Of a stretch of DNA of 64,000 bases, positions 8,559 to 48,119 are shown piece by piece (the stretch's first letter is position 1; each line of letters begins with the position of its first letter). The notes beneath the pieces are model-generated. The model was given only the letters and a program-made list of their open reading frames with translations, searched no databases and had not been told where the DNA came from. The position numbers were made by a program, and so were the translations under genes. The stretch comes from an uncultured Pelagibacteraceae bacterium. GTDB taxonomy: Bacteria; Pseudomonadota; Alphaproteobacteria; Pelagibacterales; Pelagibacteraceae. Where the stretch lies: assembly GCA_902546145.1 (NCBI GenBank), contig CACCIT010000001.1, positions 62,001-126,000 on the forward strand, in the 5' to 3' direction.

Positions 8559-9587
8559 ATGAATAATAAAAATTTTACCTATAAAAAAAGTGGTGTTAAT
8601 GTTAAAGCCGCCGATAAATTTGTAAATTTCATTTCATCAGTATCATCAAAAAAAAGGGGCAAAAAAAAGTTTTCTAATATTGGAGGGTTTGGTTCTATCT
8701 CAAATATTCCAAGCAACATAAAGCAACCTCAAATAGTTGCTTGTACAGATGGTGTTGGGACTAAAATTGAAATAGCTAATTCTTTAAATAAATTTGATAC
8801 AATTGGTATTGATCTTGTAGCAATGAGTGTGAACGATTTAATTGTTCAAGGTGCTAAACCTTTGCTTTTTTTAGATTACATTTCAATAAACAAGATTGAT
8901 TTAATTAAACTTAAATCGATCATTAAAGGAATAGTTAAGGGCTGTAAACTATCAGATTGTGAACTTGTAGGTGGAGAGACAGCAGAGATGCCTGGCACTT
9001 ATTCAAAAGGTAAATTTGATATAGCTGGTTTTGCCGTTGGTATTGTTGGTAAAAATAAAATCTTAAATAAAAATAAAATCAAAAAAAATAATTTAATATT
9101 GGCAATTCCATCTAGTGGATTACATTCTAATGGGTTCTCACTTGTAAGGTATTTAATAAATAAAAAAAAAATTAATATAAATAGAAATAAATTTTTAAAA
9201 TCAGAACTTTTGAAACCAACAAAAATATACGTAAAAGAAATAATCAATTTAATTTCAAAAAATCTTATTAATGGTTGTGCGAATATTACAGGAGGAGGAC
9301 TTGCTGATAACATTAAAAGAATTATACCAGATAACATGGTAGCTGATATTGATTTAAATGAAATTAAAACTTTAAAAATTTTTAATTGGCTTAAAAAAAA
9401 TGGAATATCAGAAAATGAAATGTTAAAAACATTTAACTGTGGTGTTGGTTTTTGCTTAATTATTAACAAAAAAAACTTAAATAAAATTCAAAGTTATTTT
9501 CCTAAAGATTACAAACCATATGTAATTGGAAAAATTATTAATGGAAAAAATAAAGTAAAATTAAATGGTTCTATCAACTGGAACTAA
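8559..9587 (+). CDS. purM: Phosphoribosylformylglycinamidine cyclo-ligase
   Basis: GVGTKIEIA, DLVAMSVNDLIVQGAKPLLFLDY, GGETAEMPGTY, ITGGGLADNIKRI motifs. Confidence 0.96.
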   Translation: MNNKNFTYKKSGVNVKAADKFVNFISSVSSKKRGKKKFSNIGGFGSISNIPSNIKQPQIVACTDGVGTKIEIANSLNKFDTIGIDLVAMSVNDLIVQGAKPLLFLDYISINKIDLIKLKSIIKGIVKGCKLSDCELVGGETAEMPGTYSKGKFDIAGFAVGIVGKNKILNKNKIKKNNLILAIPSSGLHSNGFSLVRYLINKKKININRNKFLKSELLKPTKIYVKEIINLISKNLINGCANITGGGLADNIKRIIPDNMVADIDLNEIKTLKIFNWLKKNGISENEMLKTFNCGVGFCLIINKKNLNKIQSYFPKDYKPYVIGKIINGKNKVKLNGSINWN

Positions 9588-41755: not shown

Positions 41756-42579
41756 TAAACTTTGAGCTCAATGAGAGTTTAATTGAAGAGTTTAATAATA
41801 ATGGTTTTCTGATTTTAGATAACTTTTTAGATTTAAAATATATTGAAGATCTTAGAAATAAATTTGAGCCTTTATTTAAAGGTAATTTTGAAACAGGAAT
41901 TGAGCCAGATGAGTGGAACTGGAGATTTGGTAAAGATCCTGAAGATGTTACTCGTCAAATCTGTAATGCTTGGAAGGCAGATAATTTAATAAAAAAAGTA
42001 GTTTGTCATAAAATAATTGGTAAAGTTTGTTCTCGTTTGATGAACTGGCAAGGTGCAAGATTAGTTCAGGATAATGTTTTATGGAAACCTCCCGGAGGAA
42101 AAACATTAGGCTTTCATCAAGACGCTGCTTATGATGATTGGCTTATTCCTCAAACAATGATGACCTGTTGGATGTCATTAGATGATACATCAAAAGATAC
42201 TGGAACTTTAGAGTATATAAAAGGCTCTCATAAATGGGTACTACAGCCTCCTAAAGGAGAATTTCACTCCCCTGAAGATTATAAAAAAGAATTAAATATT
42301 TTTGCTGAAAAAAATAATAAACAAATAGAAGTTGCTTATGTAGAGGTGCCAGCTGGTGGTGTTTCATTTCACCATGGCTTTACCTGGCATGGATCAGGAA
42401 TTAATACTTCAAGTAACAATCGACGAGCAATTGTTTCTCATTGTGTTCCAAGTAATGCAAAGTTTCATCCAATAAATGAAGGTGGAACAGCTAAGACTTA
42501 TAAAAAATATAAAAAGGAAAATTGTGATCTTTTAGATGAAGAGTATTTTCCTCTTTTATGGGAAAATAATTCTATTTAG
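41752..42579 (+). CDS. Phytanoyl-CoA dioxygenase (PhyH) family Fe(II)/2OG oxygenase
   Basis: LGFHQDAAYDDWLIPQTMMTCWMSLDDT ... VSFHHGFTWHGSGIN; ATGA overlap with the upstream gene. Confidence 0.9.
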   Translation: MINFELNESLIEEFNNNGFLILDNFLDLKYIEDLRNKFEPLFKGNFETGIEPDEWNWRFGKDPEDVTRQICNAWKADNLIKKVVCHKIIGKVCSRLMNWQGARLVQDNVLWKPPGGKTLGFHQDAAYDDWLIPQTMMTCWMSLDDTSKDTGTLEYIKGSHKWVLQPPKGEFHSPEDYKKELNIFAEKNNKQIEVAYVEVPAGGVSFHHGFTWHGSGINTSSNNRRAIVSHCVPSNAKFHPINEGGTAKTYKKYKKENCDLLDEEYFPLLWENNSI

Positions 42580-43042
42580 ATCCATCAAACCTATCTTCAT
42601 CCTGTCTAGTTGGATTGTAGGTAGGTGATGTTTCAAATTGTTCTTCACATTTAATATCAATATAAGGCGCTTTTGATCTTGTAAAAATCTCACCTGATAC
42701 TCCAAACCAAAAACTTGGTGGATCAAATGTTGCAGCAGCAATAGCTGTTAAACCCTTTAAAGCTGGTGCTGATATAGTCCAATAAACACTGGTTCCACAT
42801 TTTTTACAAAAATTTGTTTCAAAAGTATTTCCGCTCTCAGTTACAAACTTATATTGATTATAATTTTGTGAGTGGTGTTTTACATTTTCTTCTTTAAACC
42901 AAGCACCAACTCCAAAAGGACTGCCTGATCTTAGTTGGCAATATCTACAGTGACAAACTCTAGCTCTTTCTGGATTACCAGTTGTTTCGTATCTGTTTTC
43001 TCCACAAGCACATCCACCTTGATGAATTTCTTTATCTGACAT
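42572..43042 (-). CDS. GFA (glutathione-dependent formaldehyde-activating-like, CENP-V) family protein
   Basis: GGCACGENRYE, ARVCHCRYCQLRSGSPFGV, NFCKKCGTSVY zinc-binding motifs. Confidence 0.92.
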   Translation of the reverse strand: MSDKEIHQGGCACGENRYETTGNPERARVCHCRYCQLRSGSPFGVGAWFKEENVKHHSQNYNQYKFVTESGNTFETNFCKKCGTSVYWTISAPALKGLTAIAAATFDPPSFWFGVSGEIFTRSKAPYIDIKCEEQFETSPTYNPTRQDEDRFDGSK

Positions 43043-43070
43043 AATTAAAGACTATAATATTTTAAAATAA

Positions 43071-43132
43071 TATGAACAAAGAAAACGCAAGTAAACTCTG
43101 GAAAATTATTCAGGAAGCTGGCGATTATTTGG
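43071..43132 (+). repeat. Left copy of a 62-bp perfect direct repeat flanking the accessory island
   Basis: Identical base for base to 46849-46910; contains the 5' end of the 46850-47077 gene. Confidence 0.97.
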
Positions 43133-43140
43133 GGGAATAG
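43072..43140 (+). pseudogene. Truncated 5' copy of the ORF6C-like gene (MNKENASKLWKIIQEAGDYLGE*)
   Basis: First 20 codons identical to the gene at 46850, then an in-frame TAG at 43138-43140. Confidence 0.93.
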
Positions 43141-43156
43141 AGGGACACCCTACTAC

Positions 43157-43184
43157 ACACTACTTCACACTAGTAGACACTAGT
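43157..43184. repeat. Three ACACTA(C/G)T units at exact 10-bp spacing (possible recombinase/protein-binding iterons)
   Basis: ACACTACT 43157-43164, ACACTAGT 43167-43174, ACACTAGT 43177-43184; GACACCCTA also at 43144-43152 and 43308-43316. Confidence 0.75.
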
Positions 43185-43192
43185 TATGCGAA

Positions 43193-43288
43193 TAATTAAA
43201 ATTTGTATTAAAATAAATCGCATAAAGACTCATCGATTTAATCAAAAAACTTGAATACAGACTTGAAACAAATTAGATAAATCAAATA
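43193..43288 (+). repeat. Left copy of a ~96-bp imperfect direct repeat (R2) bounding the cargo
   Basis: Aligns without gaps to 46609-46704 with about 7 mismatches; includes acttgaaacaaattagataaatcaa. Confidence 0.9.
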
Positions 43289-43379
43289 CATGTTTTTCAA
43301 GCAATTAGACACCCTATTAAGGATTTGGTAATCTTGGTTATGAGTTTAAGTGCTGAACTTAAAAAAAAAATAATAAAAT

Positions 43380-43589
43380 CTAAATTTTATAATCTTTTCT
43401 CCATTTATTTGTAATCTTTGTTATGGCTCTATTTTGTGGATGATTATCACTAAAACCGTTTTCACCTGAAATACCAGCGTTGTGACAATTAGATGCTATA
43501 ACTTTTATTTCATCAGCTAATTTATCATCATTGTATTTTTTTTTTATGATTGTTGAAATTGAAAATACAGCATGTTCAATAGGTCCCAT
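43380..43589 (-). CDS. Small protein (69 aa) of unknown function, last gene of the island operon
   Basis: ORF preceded by AAAGGAGTAATAATG-type Shine-Dalgarno, 17 nt downstream of the GHKL ATPase gene on the same strand. Confidence 0.65.
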   Translation of the reverse strand: MGPIEHAVFSISTIIKKKYNDDKLADEIKVIASNCHNAGISGENGFSDNHPQNRAITKITNKWRKDYKI

Positions 43590-43606
43590 TATTACTCCTT
43601 TCTAAA

Positions 43607-45586
43607 TTAGATTTCCGAAACTCTAGATTTCTCTTTTTCAATTCTTGATTTTAGATCAATTACTTTTTTTGAACCAAAAGACATAAATTTATCCTCTACA
43701 TAAATTTTGTGAATTGCATCTGCATATTTATTTTGAAGTTCATTTGCATATTTATTAATAGCATCTGGTCCAGCTACTAATGGTGTATATTTTCCAGTTT
43801 CTATAGCCCTTTTTGCAACAGCTTTTGAGACAGCCTCTAAAACTAACTCTGCTTGCATCACTTGACCACCAGGAGTATCCAATCCTTTGCCACCTTCTCC
43901 GAGATATAAACTTACTGATGGAGATTTAATAAAAATTACTACATTGTTTTCTGAGTCAAACATAACTCTTTGCTTAACCCCTTCCCTTGGATCGTATTTA
44001 ATATCGTTTATGAAACCACCTCTTTTCTTTGGCTTAGGGTTTGGATTAGGATTTCTAACAGTTTTAGCTACAGAGTGTAAAAGAGTTTGTGCTTCATTAC
44101 TTTCGAAATTAGCAGTTAAAACATTATCGCTACCAACTTGTCCTCCTTCAACTCTAACAGTAGCTTTAACAAGATCTTCCCACTCTGTTTCTTGAAAAGC
44201 AACATCTTTAGTTACAACATTTAATTTCTGCTCTTCAGATGAAAAACTTACAACGTCACCTTCTTTAGCTATGCTAGTATTAGCATAAACTGAAATACTG
44301 TTTGTTTTATTTGAAATTATTGAAAAATATTCTGACAGGAAACCAAACCCATTATTAGGTCTAGGTTTATTTTTTCCCTGAGTTACAACTGGACCTAAAT
44401 CATTTTCACCTAAGAGTTCTTTAAATAATTCATTTATTTTATTTACTGACTCTTCTATTTTAACTTTATGTTTTTTGTCTAATTGACCTTTCCTACTATT
44501 TTGAATTTCTCTTCTTTTCGCATCTATAAAAGGTTTAATTTTTTCAATTACAGTTTCTTTTAAAGCTTTCATGAAGTCGTGATTCCAATTAGGACCAGTT
44601 CTATTAGTTGAAAATACAACTTCATCTCTTAATGCAAGTTCTCTTATATGTGGACAATCACACGTTCCATAAAAAAAAGAAAATGCTTCGTCAGCTGACC
44701 AATCAAATGCGGTATTATCTACTGCTAATCCTTGGGTATAAAAGACTATTCCAGATAAAGCAGACTCCTTTTCTTCGGAAACTGTAGTTAATTCTTCCTT
44801 ACATTCATTTAATTCTAAATTTATCTTTATATCAGGGAAATTTTTAACTGAAACTTCCTCATTTAGAATATTTTTTGATTTAGGATAATTAAATTCTAAA
44901 ACTCTTTCATGAAGAACTCTTTTTCCTCTAGTTGACTTAAAATTAATAGATCTATTTGGATCAGCTATTATATGTCTTATCTCAAAATGTGTCTGTAGTT
45001 GTTCCCTCAACTGTTCATACTGAGTTATTGTTCTTATTTTTGAACAATCTGCAACAACCAAAGTACCATTTTTTTTATGTATTCCTAATTCTGATCTTAT
45101 TTTTTTATTAGCTGATTTCTGTGGGTGTTTAAATAATTTTGGTTTTCTTTTTTTTGTATAGACATCAATTCTATTATATTTGCCATCTTTAATTGTATGT
45201 ACAGTTCCAGAACCAAGTCCCAATAAAGATTGAATCAATCCTCTTCCCCAAAGTCCTCTTACACTTCTTCCTTTTTGAGTATTATCAAATCCACTAGTTG
45301 AAGCTGCGTAAGTTCTTATTTTTTTCTCTAACTCATCCTCACCCATTCCTTCTGCAAAATCTCTAAATTTTAAAATTGCACTATCTAGTTTTCTTTCATA
45401 TTCAATTTCAATTTTTCCATTAATTTTTGCATTTTTATTTTCTAATCTTTTATAACTATCATCAGGATTTGTTGTTAATTCAATTGCTGCTCTTTTTAAA
45501 TCACCTCTTATTGTGTCATTCGCATCTGTAGTTAGCAACCTATCGTCTATCTTAAAATCTAATTCTTCACCTTTTTTTGCTACCAT
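43607..45586 (-). CDS. GHKL-type ATPase (MutL/Hsp90/MORC-like), putative conflict-system protein
   Basis: N-box-like KRAAIELTTNPDDSYKR, FRDFAEGMGEDEL (motif 1-like), GRSVRGLWGRGLIQSLLGLGSG (glycine lid-like); a later NRTGPNWNHDFMKAL segment resembles an S5-type transducer region. Confidence 0.78.
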   Translation of the reverse strand: MVAKKGEELDFKIDDRLLTTDANDTIRGDLKRAAIELTTNPDDSYKRLENKNAKINGKIEIEYERKLDSAILKFRDFAEGMGEDELEKKIRTYAASTSGFDNTQKGRSVRGLWGRGLIQSLLGLGSGTVHTIKDGKYNRIDVYTKKRKPKLFKHPQKSANKKIRSELGIHKKNGTLVVADCSKIRTITQYEQLREQLQTHFEIRHIIADPNRSINFKSTRGKRVLHERVLEFNYPKSKNILNEEVSVKNFPDIKINLELNECKEELTTVSEEKESALSGIVFYTQGLAVDNTAFDWSADEAFSFFYGTCDCPHIRELALRDEVVFSTNRTGPNWNHDFMKALKETVIEKIKPFIDAKRREIQNSRKGQLDKKHKVKIEESVNKINELFKELLGENDLGPVVTQGKNKPRPNNGFGFLSEYFSIISNKTNSISVYANTSIAKEGDVVSFSSEEQKLNVVTKDVAFQETEWEDLVKATVRVEGGQVGSDNVLTANFESNEAQTLLHSVAKTVRNPNPNPKPKKRGGFINDIKYDPREGVKQRVMFDSENNVVIFIKSPSVSLYLGEGGKGLDTPGGQVMQAELVLEAVSKAVAKRAIETGKYTPLVAGPDAINKYANELQNKYADAIHKIYVEDKFMSFGSKKVIDLKSRIEKEKSRVSEI

Positions 45587-45587
45587 A

Positions 45588-46247
45588 TTATTTATTTAGC
45601 TTTTTAAGCATACCTCCTGAATATTTGTCATCGTTGTTTGTGGAAAATAGAAACACATATTTTTCTTTTAAATCATCTAAGAAATTGATCATATCATCTC
45701 TGTTACAAGCTTTAAGATGTTGCGTTAATTCAATAAATGATCTGTTGAGCATTTCAGACGAGCTTTCCATTGTGCAATGTAATATTTCTCTCAAATCAAA
45801 TTCTGTAACATCTAAAATGCTTTTTGAATTTAAAAATTTTTTATAACCATCTGAATTTTCCATTATATTAACGATTTTACCAGATCTTGTCCTGTTATCT
45901 TTATTTGTTTTGATCGATGATTTAATTTTTAATTTCTGCTCAGTTATTTTTACTAAATCAACACCCTTTGGAAGGACTGTAAATCCACTTTTATTGTTTC
46001 CAGAAATATAATCTAAATGTCTACAATCAACCCATCTTTTATCTATAACAGCTGAGTCAGGCCAATCTTCATGTCCCCTTAATCCAAACTTTTTAGGAAA
46101 CATTTTAAAAGCTCCAAGAACTAGTTCTTCTCTTGTTATTGACCTATTTTGTTCACATAATTTATGTGCTGTATAAACGATCAGCTCATTCATACCTACA
46201 TCAATATATTTATTTTCTTCAAACATTTTTAAATCTTCTAATCTCAT
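45588..46247 (-). CDS. Winged-helix-like protein, partner of the GHKL ATPase
   Basis: ITREELVLGAFKMFPKKFGLRGHEDWPDSAVIDKRWVDCRHLDYISGNNKSGFTVLPKGVDLVK reads like a wHTH; 1-nt overlap (TAATG) with the upstream gene and 1-nt gap to the ATPase gene. Confidence 0.7.
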   Translation of the reverse strand: MRLEDLKMFEENKYIDVGMNELIVYTAHKLCEQNRSITREELVLGAFKMFPKKFGLRGHEDWPDSAVIDKRWVDCRHLDYISGNNKSGFTVLPKGVDLVKITEQKLKIKSSIKTNKDNRTRSGKIVNIMENSDGYKKFLNSKSILDVTEFDLREILHCTMESSSEMLNRSFIELTQHLKACNRDDMINFLDDLKEKYVFLFSTNNDDKYSGGMLKKLNK

Positions 46248-46468
46248 TATGTAAAATCAAACTCATCTCTTTCTCTTCCAGTTTTTGAGTTTCTAAACTT
46301 ATGTTTTATTACTCTTACTTCTTTTTCAAGCGCGCTAATAATTTGCTCAGCTTCATCTGTTGAGTAAGCGTAATGACTTTTATTAGCTAAATTACCAATG
46401 AGCTTAATAGTTTTAATTGCTTTGTTAGTTCTGCTTTTTGCAAGTTCTCTAAATTTTTTATCTTTCAT
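46247..46468 (-). CDS. Small helical protein (73 aa), first gene of the island operon
   Basis: Starts at MKDKKFRELAKSR... 7 nt after a -10 element; the track's longer start (46522) lies upstream of the promoter elements. Confidence 0.7.
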   Translation of the reverse strand: MKDKKFRELAKSRTNKAIKTIKLIGNLANKSHYAYSTDEAEQIISALEKEVRVIKHKFRNSKTGRERDEFDFT

Positions 46469-46475
46469 TGTATTT

Positions 46476-46504
46476 AATATATGTTGCCATATGGCATATG
46501 TCAA
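46476..46504 (-). promoter_or_regulatory. Near-consensus sigma-70 promoter TTGACA-N17-TATATT with 12-bp palindrome TGCCATATGGCA in the spacer
   Basis: Minus strand: TTGACAtatgccatatggcaacaTATATTaaatacaATG; -35 at 46499-46504, -10 at 46476-46481, palindrome at 46485-46496. Confidence 0.8.
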
Positions 46505-46608
46505 GTGTAAATAATTATACAACCTATAGACTAATCATTATTTAAACCTATATTTACAACAATATTTAGACGAGTATCTTTTTAATTAATTATAAATAAG
46601 AAAGCAGA

Positions 46609-46704
46609 TAATTAAAATTTTTATTAAAATAAATTGTATAAAGACTCATCTATTTAATTAAAAAACTTAAATACATACTTGAAACAAATTAGATAAATCA
46701 AATA
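46609..46704 (+). repeat. Right copy of the ~96-bp imperfect direct repeat (R2)
   Basis: See 43193-43288. Confidence 0.9.
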
Positions 46705-46781
46705 GCTATTGAGTGTGTGCAAAAAATCTATAGCTCTTAAATATCATTTATTTATTGAGTCGTTTTGACTCGTTAAATATA

Positions 46782-46837
46782 TTATAGGATTTTATAGGAT
46801 AACTTGAAACAAACTTGAAACAAACGAGATAAATCAA
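46782..46837. repeat. Right-end short repeats: TTATAGGAT x2 at 10-bp spacing, then ACTTGAAACAA x2 in tandem, the second within a third copy of the acttgaaacaaa..agataaatcaa motif
   Basis: 46782-46790 and 46792-46800; 46802-46812 and 46813-46823; full motif 46813-46837. Confidence 0.75.
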
Positions 46838-46848
46838 GGTATAAGTAG

Positions 46849-46910
46849 TATGAACAAAGAAAACGCAAGTAAACTCTGGAAAATTATTCAGGAAGCTGGC
46901 GATTATTTGG
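46849..46910 (+). repeat. Right copy of the 62-bp perfect direct repeat
   Basis: Identical to 43071-43132. Confidence 0.97.
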
Positions 46911-47077
46911 TGGGACAATTACCTGACCATCCAAATCACCCTAAAGGAAGAAACCCCTATGCTCATGTTGCTATCTGTGTGAAGAGTAAATTCAATGCAA
47001 GTTATAAGGATATTCCTGATGAAAAATTTGATGAAGTTATAAAGTATATTGAGTTTTTAAAAGAAAATCCTAGTTAG
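46850..47077 (+). CDS. Small protein with ORF6C-like C-terminal motif (SYKDIPDEKFDEVIKYIEFL)
   Basis: Complete 75-aa ORF; the C-terminal part resembles the ORF6C domain of phage-associated regulators. Confidence 0.7.
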   Translation: MNKENASKLWKIIQEAGDYLVGQLPDHPNHPKGRNPYAHVAICVKSKFNASYKDIPDEKFDEVIKYIEFLKENPS

Positions 47078-48119
47078 ATTTAATTGTATTTAACAATTCA
47101 TCAACATCACTAGCTTTAGTATTCCAAGCAGCAACTAATCTAACCGCTTTACCATCCAATTCTTCTTCATTCATTTTGTAACCTTGAGAATTTAGATGTT
47201 CTATTTTTTCTCTTGGAAATTTTGCAAAAACTTCATTTGCCTCTGTTGGATAAGCAATTTCAATATCATTATGTTTACTTAAACCATCACTTAATTTTTT
47301 ACCCATTGCATTAGCATGTTTTGCGTTTCTCAACCAAACATCATTTGAAATGTAGGCATCTAGTTGAGCAGACACAAAACGCATTTTAGATAATAAATGC
47401 CCTGCTCTTTTCATTAAAAAAGCAATGTCCCCTACTAATTCTTTCTTAAAAAATATAATTGCTTCAGCAGCTAAACATCCATTTTTAGTTGCTCCAAATG
47501 ACAATACATCAACCCCTGATTTCCAAGTCATTTCAGCAGGAGTTGCACCTAAAGATACCAATGCATTAGCAAATCTAGCACCATCCATATGTAAATTTAG
47601 ATTATGTTTGTGAGTTATCTCTGCAATTTTTTTGATTTCATCTAATTGATAAACTTCCCCTGTTTCACATACTTGAGTGATACTGACTGATGAAGGTTGG
47701 GTGTGATGCACAATTCCTTTTCCACCTATCGATTGGTGTAATTCTTCTGCAGTTATTTTTCCCATTATTCCAGTTAAAGGAATTAATTTTCCACCTCCTG
47801 TATAAAATTCAGGGGCACCACATTCATCCGTATTAATGTGAGACATCTTATGGCAATAAATATTTCCATATGATGGTGTCATTGTAGATAAAGCTAATGC
47901 ATTTGCAGCTGTCCCTGATGCAGTTGGAAAAACAATTACTTCTTTTTCAAATATTTCAGAAAACTTATCTTGTAACTCTGTTGATAAAGGATCATTTCCA
48001 TAAGGAGTACTATCTCCTTCATTTGCTTTTATGATTGCCTCTAATACTTCAGGACAAGCACCCGCAACATTATCGGAAGCGAATTTAACCCGCTCTCTTT
48101 TTGTTTTTATTTTTGCCAT
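47070..48119 (-). CDS. Low-specificity L-threonine aldolase-like PLP enzyme
   Basis: FASDNVAGACPEVLEAI, YGNDPLSTELQ, LHMDGARFANALVSLG, SFGATKNGCLAAEA motifs. Confidence 0.9.
   Translation of the reverse strand: MAKIKTKRERVKFASDNVAGACPEVLEAIIKANEGDSTPYGNDPLSTELQDKFSEIFEKEVIVFPTASGTAANALALSTMTPSYGNIYCHKMSHINTDECGAPEFYTGGGKLIPLTGIMGKITAEELHQSIGGKGIVHHTQPSSVSITQVCETGEVYQLDEIKKIAEITHKHNLNLHMDGARFANALVSLGATPAEMTWKSGVDVLSFGATKNGCLAAEAIIFFKKELVGDIAFLMKRAGHLLSKMRFVSAQLDAYISNDVWLRNAKHANAMGKKLSDGLSKHNDIEIAYPTEANEVFAKFPREKIEHLNSQGYKMNEEELDGKAVRLVAAWNTKASDVDELLNTIKSN

Follow-up and report, generated by a model that had tools for sequence, protein, structure and literature searches.

The accessory island at positions 43133–46910 of a 64,000-nucleotide stretch of DNA from an uncultured Pelagibacteraceae bacterium of the SAR11 group (this whole stretch is referred to as the window) is most probably a non-autonomous integrative cassette, or strictly a fused pair of cassettes, that was inserted site-specifically into the 5′ end of a small conserved gene and depends for its movement on an integrase supplied in trans by a satellite-like circular element. 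SAR11 bacteria, which rank among the most numerous cells of the ocean, have streamlined genomes with few recognised mobile elements. A preliminary description of the window had proposed an element inserted in this gene. That proposal holds, but the element is a composite and belongs to a large family instead of standing alone.

The island is bordered by two same-strand copies of a 62-bp sequence, the left attachment site attL (43071–43132, forward strand) and the right attachment site attR (46849–46910, forward strand), which had been reported as identical and indeed match exactly. Similarity between both copies reaches 71 nt at 96%, a chance origin of the 62-bp repeat is negligible (about 4^-62 per position pair), and a query with window positions 43000–43200 matches the whole assembly solely at these two places. 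The other elements of the preliminary description are equally present in the sequence: the left copy lies in a stub open reading frame (ORF) of 22 codons (43072–43140, forward strand) ending in a TAG, a TATAAT is located upstream of the stub (43053–43058), the right copy is the start of an intact gene of 75 amino acids (46850–47077, forward strand), and there is no recombinase between the copies, as none of the four island ORFs matches a Pfam family. The TAG of the stub is contributed by the element, according to junction comparison.

The empty site that the preliminary description predicted, with one copy of the repeat and an intact small gene beside a GFA-family gene, is found in the single-contig genome G106. 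When the window flanks are joined at the repeat, they align with this genome without gaps over 1431 bp at 94.3% identity. The DNA upstream of attL continues as in this empty site, which identifies the left copy as the 5′ end that the small gene had in the host before insertion. In another genome (G121), the left flank is as in the window (95.9% over 732 bp) and a different island occupies the same place. The docking site is used widely. The small gene is present in 254 of the 399 genomes of the genus set, and in 63 of these 254 (counted by hand from the listing) its first ~20 codons occur two to four times. The junction of stub and TAG occurs in 48 of 398 genomes of the genus and not once in a reversed control; outside the genus, a single genome from another genus of the family has it, and the sampled genomes of the other family all lack it. 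The 5′ end of the 75-amino acid gene is thus evidently a genus-wide insertion hotspot. Among the named matches listed, core carriers are assigned to Pelagibacteraceae, Pelagibacter and Pelagibacterales, with one 'Alpha proteobacterium', and many are single-cell genomes. However, the islands are not an artefact of single-cell amplification, since the single-contig genome G409 bears a 2.2-kb island with the same ends. A contig of one genome (G373:C7) has two stub junctions 15 kb apart (16975 and 31965), with the intact gene on a different contig, representing either a second locus or a long array.

In total, 45 islands were dissected, being 44 islands from relatives and the one in the window. 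They measure 0.75–6.8 kb, hold one to seven ORFs, have same-strand copies as borders and form arrays of up to three (G024). Their ends are shared, while their cargo is mostly unrelated. In the 45 pairs of stub and right partner, differences are frequent at gene positions 27, 36, 39 and from 60 onwards, and the two are near-identical at positions 40–59. Since one island (L113) differs on both sides, the exchange is placed inside CAGGAAGCTGGCGATTATTT, and it appears to be confined to these gene positions, or about 20 bp. In the window, this core corresponds to 43111–43130 in attL and 46889–46908 in attR (both forward strand). From the position of the core it follows that the intact gene has the start region of the element, in the window its first ~60 nt, and that the stub has the one of the host. 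The preliminary description, which expected insertion to restore the 5′ end, was right about the insertion and the intact gene; it is the stub that keeps the host start, and the start and promoter region of the intact gene are element-derived.

Cassettes also move between genomes. A cassette of 2296 bp has equal length in G190, where it is the second in an array, and in G210, where it stands alone. Both versions are 99.8% identical, and the DNA just outside the core is only 68% identical. Another cassette pair shows 97.2% identity over 2645 bp against 76% in the flanks. As cassette identity lies far above flank identity, cassettes evidently move as exact units, and whole cassettes with exact ends are transferred between divergent genomes. 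One further cassette (L091.2 and L106.1), near-identical in two divergent genomes, has a GC content of 0.39, compared to 0.24–0.32 in others, and is probably recently foreign cargo.

The 25 most frequent Pfam families in a set of 100 island proteins include no recognisable integrase, and the window ORFs have none either. A cognate integrase is instead encoded by separate elements with the same attachment site. A search of IMG/VR with the core pattern found two contigs, and the exact junction is present there only in contigs L156, L160 and L299. L156 is 9070 bp long with a 29-bp terminal direct repeat and is for that reason probably a circle of 9041 bp. It contains a complete phage-type attachment site (attP) with both ends, directly followed by a 581-amino acid tyrosine integrase, and also encodes a primase-helicase and a RusA-like resolvase. 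The same attP is found in two more circles, L160 and L299, and in all three it stands complete, immediately before the integrase. These circles are ~9 kb in size and their tyrosine integrases have 571–581 amino acids. The structural model of the integrase has matches among tyrosine recombinases, and separate matches to the arm-binding domains of HAI7, HPI and P4-like integrases. The combination of a tyrosine integrase with replication genes is satellite-like; the circles are known from IMG/VR sequence records, and such a listing is no proof of virion packaging. Neither a search of phage records with the right end and core (no nucleotide match) nor one of IMG/VR with the right-end pattern gave a match. 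The integrase is rare, being present in 7 of 399 genomes. The only tyrosine recombinase detected in most genomes of the genus is a XerC/D-like protein of ~318 amino acids.

Integrated relatives of the circles have been found as well. G183 carries such an element, its integrase broken, at the window's own chromosomal site. In G424, a more distant integrase is situated in the 3′ end of the small gene. A related element (L171:393-512 and L172:9007-9231, IMG/VR 3300025425_002733) occupies the 3′ end of the small gene, with ~110 bp duplicated, and there a right end of the 5′ class is found on the 5′ side of the gene, which makes the small gene a target at both ends. Other targets exist. More distant integrase elements are inserted in the 5′ half of tRNA-Leu(TAA) with the first 41–42 nt duplicated, namely L173 (direct repeats 1501–1541 and 9277–9317, element ~7.8 kb) and L174 (6972–7013 and 15778–15819, ~8.8 kb). 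L300 and L301, two circles that belong to this family and have arms of the same type, carry another attP core, so that a second target gene probably exists for them. A 14-kb circle (L298) carries the family primase and a tRNA-Arg gene and has no integrase homolog.

Besides the core, the elements share short arm repeats. Most have two copies of a ~9-nt repeat, consisting of ACT and six variable bases, just upstream of the start codon, and the same repeat again ~105–130 nt past the stub. Left and right arms match within the element in 38 of 46 cases, whereas 2000 shuffles gave 9.6 on average and never more than 19. The arm repeats near both ends of the window island, absent from the preliminary description, are ACTTGAATAC (43249–43258) and ACTTGAAAC (43261–43269) on the left (43249–43269, forward strand) and two copies of ACTTGAAAC (46802–46810 and 46813–46821) on the right (46802–46821, forward strand). 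The same code ACTTGAAAC is found in cassette L034.1. Codes are also shared with circles: the code of L160 is that of cassette L091.1, and the code of L156 resembles those of L088.1, L104.1 and L113.1. In the circles, the first codons of int contain the left arm copies; in the window cassette this DNA has been kept, but not its reading frame. The arm repeat is a putative address bound by the integrase or a partner.

Further end sequences delimit the cassettes. The left end of the window element (43133–43190, forward strand) has ~10-bp repeats resembling ACACTACTTC and is of a kind common to cassettes and circles. An inverted repeat, TTATGCG/CGCATAA (43184–43190 and 43219–43225; 43184–43225, unstranded), is a cassette-specific motif: TTATGCG is present in 25 of 45 cassettes and absent from the three circles. 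The right end contains the direct repeat TATAGGAT (46783–46800, forward strand), found in 29 of 45 cassettes. Cassettes are unlikely to be simple deletion derivatives of the known circles, as they share end motifs that the circles do not have. A second direct repeat in the window, missed in the preliminary description, is 97 bp long at 93% identity (43192–43288 and 46608–46704). Its right copy (46608–46704, forward strand) matches the left ends of other cassettes and has arm repeats, without core or stub. Because this left-end sequence recurs, the copy is seen as the remnant of a second cassette, and the best explanation of the window island is a deletion that fused two cassettes standing in tandem.

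Comparison shows that cassettes enter codons 14–20 of the conserved 75-amino acid gene by site-specific recombination, and the following mechanism is suggested. Excision and integration would be carried out in trans by the arm-binding tyrosine integrase of the rare, circular satellite-like element of ~9 kb with the same attP, the ~9-nt arm repeats serving as the address read by this integrase or an accessory factor. Every insertion supplies the target gene with a new start and promoter region, which lets the gene survive, and the cargo, often defence genes, would be what selection retains. Mobilisation in trans had already been guessed in the preliminary description. It is now the best-supported mechanism, favoured because separate elements encode a cognate integrase next to the same attP, while the act of mobilisation itself stays an inferred step. 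Several points weigh against this explanation. An excised cassette circle has not been seen, and the case is built on comparison of sequences. The cassette ends bear motifs that the circles lack, 8 of 46 elements have no arm match, and the integrase model is of moderate confidence (predicted local distance difference test, pLDDT, 73; predicted template modelling score, pTM, 0.40). Moreover, no homolog of the circle integrase was found in the window's own genome (62% complete) or in G409, so that the resident islands of both may be stationary at present.

The absence of an integrase from the islands, and of one of the circle type from most genomes, would also be expected if the islands were fossils, i.e., decayed integrative elements that lost their integrase after insertion, became fixed, and move solely by accretion with an active neighbour, as cis-mobilizable elements (CIMEs) in the strict sense. 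The fused second left end in the window island and the decayed stubs in L092.1 and L114.1 fit this as well. Nevertheless, it is unlikely, as whole cassettes with exact ends have recently been exchanged between divergent genomes, arm pairs are still matched within elements, and the cassette end motifs missing from the circles are as expected for a separate lineage. A second explanation is that cassettes spread by homologous recombination of their flanks, through transformation or transduction, with the repeats as relics of old insertions. Homologous exchange is frequent in SAR11 and the shared ends would offer short homology, yet this is quite improbable, as in the clearest transfer identity falls at the core from 99.8% to 68%, and the differences between stubs and partners place the exchange in about 20 bp. 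It is more doubtful still that the resident XerC/D-like recombinase of ~318 amino acids integrates the cassettes in the manner of an integron integrase. Its single gene is present in most genomes tested, including single-contig ones, and it is weakly similar to XerA and integron models. However, it is located elsewhere, among glycosyltransferase-type genes in two examples, it has no counterpart of the satellite integrase's long N-terminal region, and in all three attP-bearing circles the whole attP directly precedes the other integrase. Finally, a simple segmental duplication of the gene's 5′ end without a mobile element would account for two identical copies, but is practically excluded by the predicted single-copy empty site in G106, the mostly unrelated cargo of relatives and the conserved, shared element ends.

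The cargo of the site-specifically inserted cassettes was surveyed with Pfam and PADLOC on the 100 island proteins. Defence-type cargo includes type I and IIG restriction-modification, specificity subunits, GmrSD, Z1 helicase, Mrr-type and DUF559/MTES_1575 nucleases and MADS-like components. Other cargo consists of proteases, dehydrogenases, a TypA-like GTPase and DUF1330 proteins. One DUF1330 gene recurs in cassettes of four genomes with differing neighbours (L033.2, L119.1, L303.1 and L304.1). In the window, all cargo lies on the reverse strand. It comprises an ORF of 69 amino acids without Pfam family or assigned function (43380–43589) and a module encoding proteins of 659 (43607–45586), 219 (45588–46247) and 73 amino acids (46247–46468). 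Diverged counterparts of this module are present in L093 and L105; the large protein is related to proteins of both at ~25% identity, its 219-amino acid partner to that of L105, and the smallest protein has equivalents of matching place and size in L105, L093 and L087. The GHKL motifs (N, G1 and G2 boxes were sought) of the 659-amino acid protein are invariant in three relatives, and its profile match to the TRAP1 ATPase domain is weak (E 0.15). As its predicted structure is unusable (pLDDT 35), assignment rests on these motifs and weak profile matches, by which it is probably a GHKL-type ATPase. PADLOC and NCBIfam recognise no named system in the module, and its role in defence is guessed from what other cassettes of the family carry. 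The chromosomal flanks are the GFA-family gene on the left (42572–43042, PF04828) and a threonine-aldolase-like gene on the right (47070–48119, PF01212), both on the reverse strand.

One docking gene with a large pool of small, exactly delimited cassettes offers a concrete route for the gain and loss of phage immunity. The core with its matching arm repeats is a signature for collecting cassettes automatically, together with new defence genes inside them, and the arm code makes the pairing of integrase and cassette directly testable. A broader proposal is about as likely as not, namely a two-tier system in SAR11 in which a rare autonomous satellite-like element coexists with a much commoner pool of non-autonomous defence cassettes using its integrase, a diversified arm address deciding the pairing and one small gene being the docking site for immune-gene exchange across the genus.

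Several known systems are comparable. Miniature inverted-repeat transposable elements (MITEs) are short non-autonomous relatives of insertion sequences that share their ends with a rare autonomous partner; unlike these, SAR11 cassettes use site-specific recombination into one gene, carry protein-coding cargo and have no transposon terminal inverted repeats. Pfam matches to conjugation or mobilisation genes, as in integrative and conjugative or mobilizable elements, are missing from the four island ORFs. The window island resembles CIMEs in being flanked by attL and attR without integrase or transfer genes. Tandem arrays and an integrated element of the integrase type were observed at the site, where a CIME would be moved by accretion with such an element. 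Similarly, the ssrA islands of Dehalococcoides are tandem, lie between direct repeats of a gene end, often lack a recombinase and are thought to be moved by an integrase-bearing neighbour (PMC3146451). However, their recombinase is of the serine type, their target is the tmRNA gene at its 3′ end, and most described islands have an integration module (PMC3146451), whereas SAR11 cassettes are small, occupy a protein gene at its 5′ end, have matched arm repeats and are associated with a tyrosine integrase that is rare. The ~9-kb circles resemble the marine phage satellites called virion-encapsidated integrative mobile elements (VEIMEs) and tycheposons, to the extent that these are outlined where they are named (PMC10803314; PMC11389934), in integrase, primase-helicase and origin from a virus collection. 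The cassettes differ from them, on the same outline, in having neither integrase nor replication genes, and the window island ORFs likewise contain no integrase of their own. As in arrays of integron cassettes and clusters of attC sites lacking integron-integrases (CALIN; PMC11389934), small integrase-less cassettes are arranged in one orientation and, as inferred here, mobilised in trans. Unlike in integrons, the sites consist of core and arm repeats around a gene's 5′ end, the integrase is on another mobile element, and the window ORFs include no intI-type integrase beside the site. Like the SAR11 cassettes, dusA-type islands have a protein-coding gene as their target, and their integrase family acts at the 5′ end of dusA; unlike the cassettes, they are reported to encode their own integrase (PMC4482086). 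An earlier description of this cassette family was not found in the open-access literature, the coverage of which is incomplete, so that one may exist. Integrase-less integrative elements are already known as such; what is new here is the combination of small cassettes, a docking site at the 5′ end of a gene, the arm code and the scale in SAR11.
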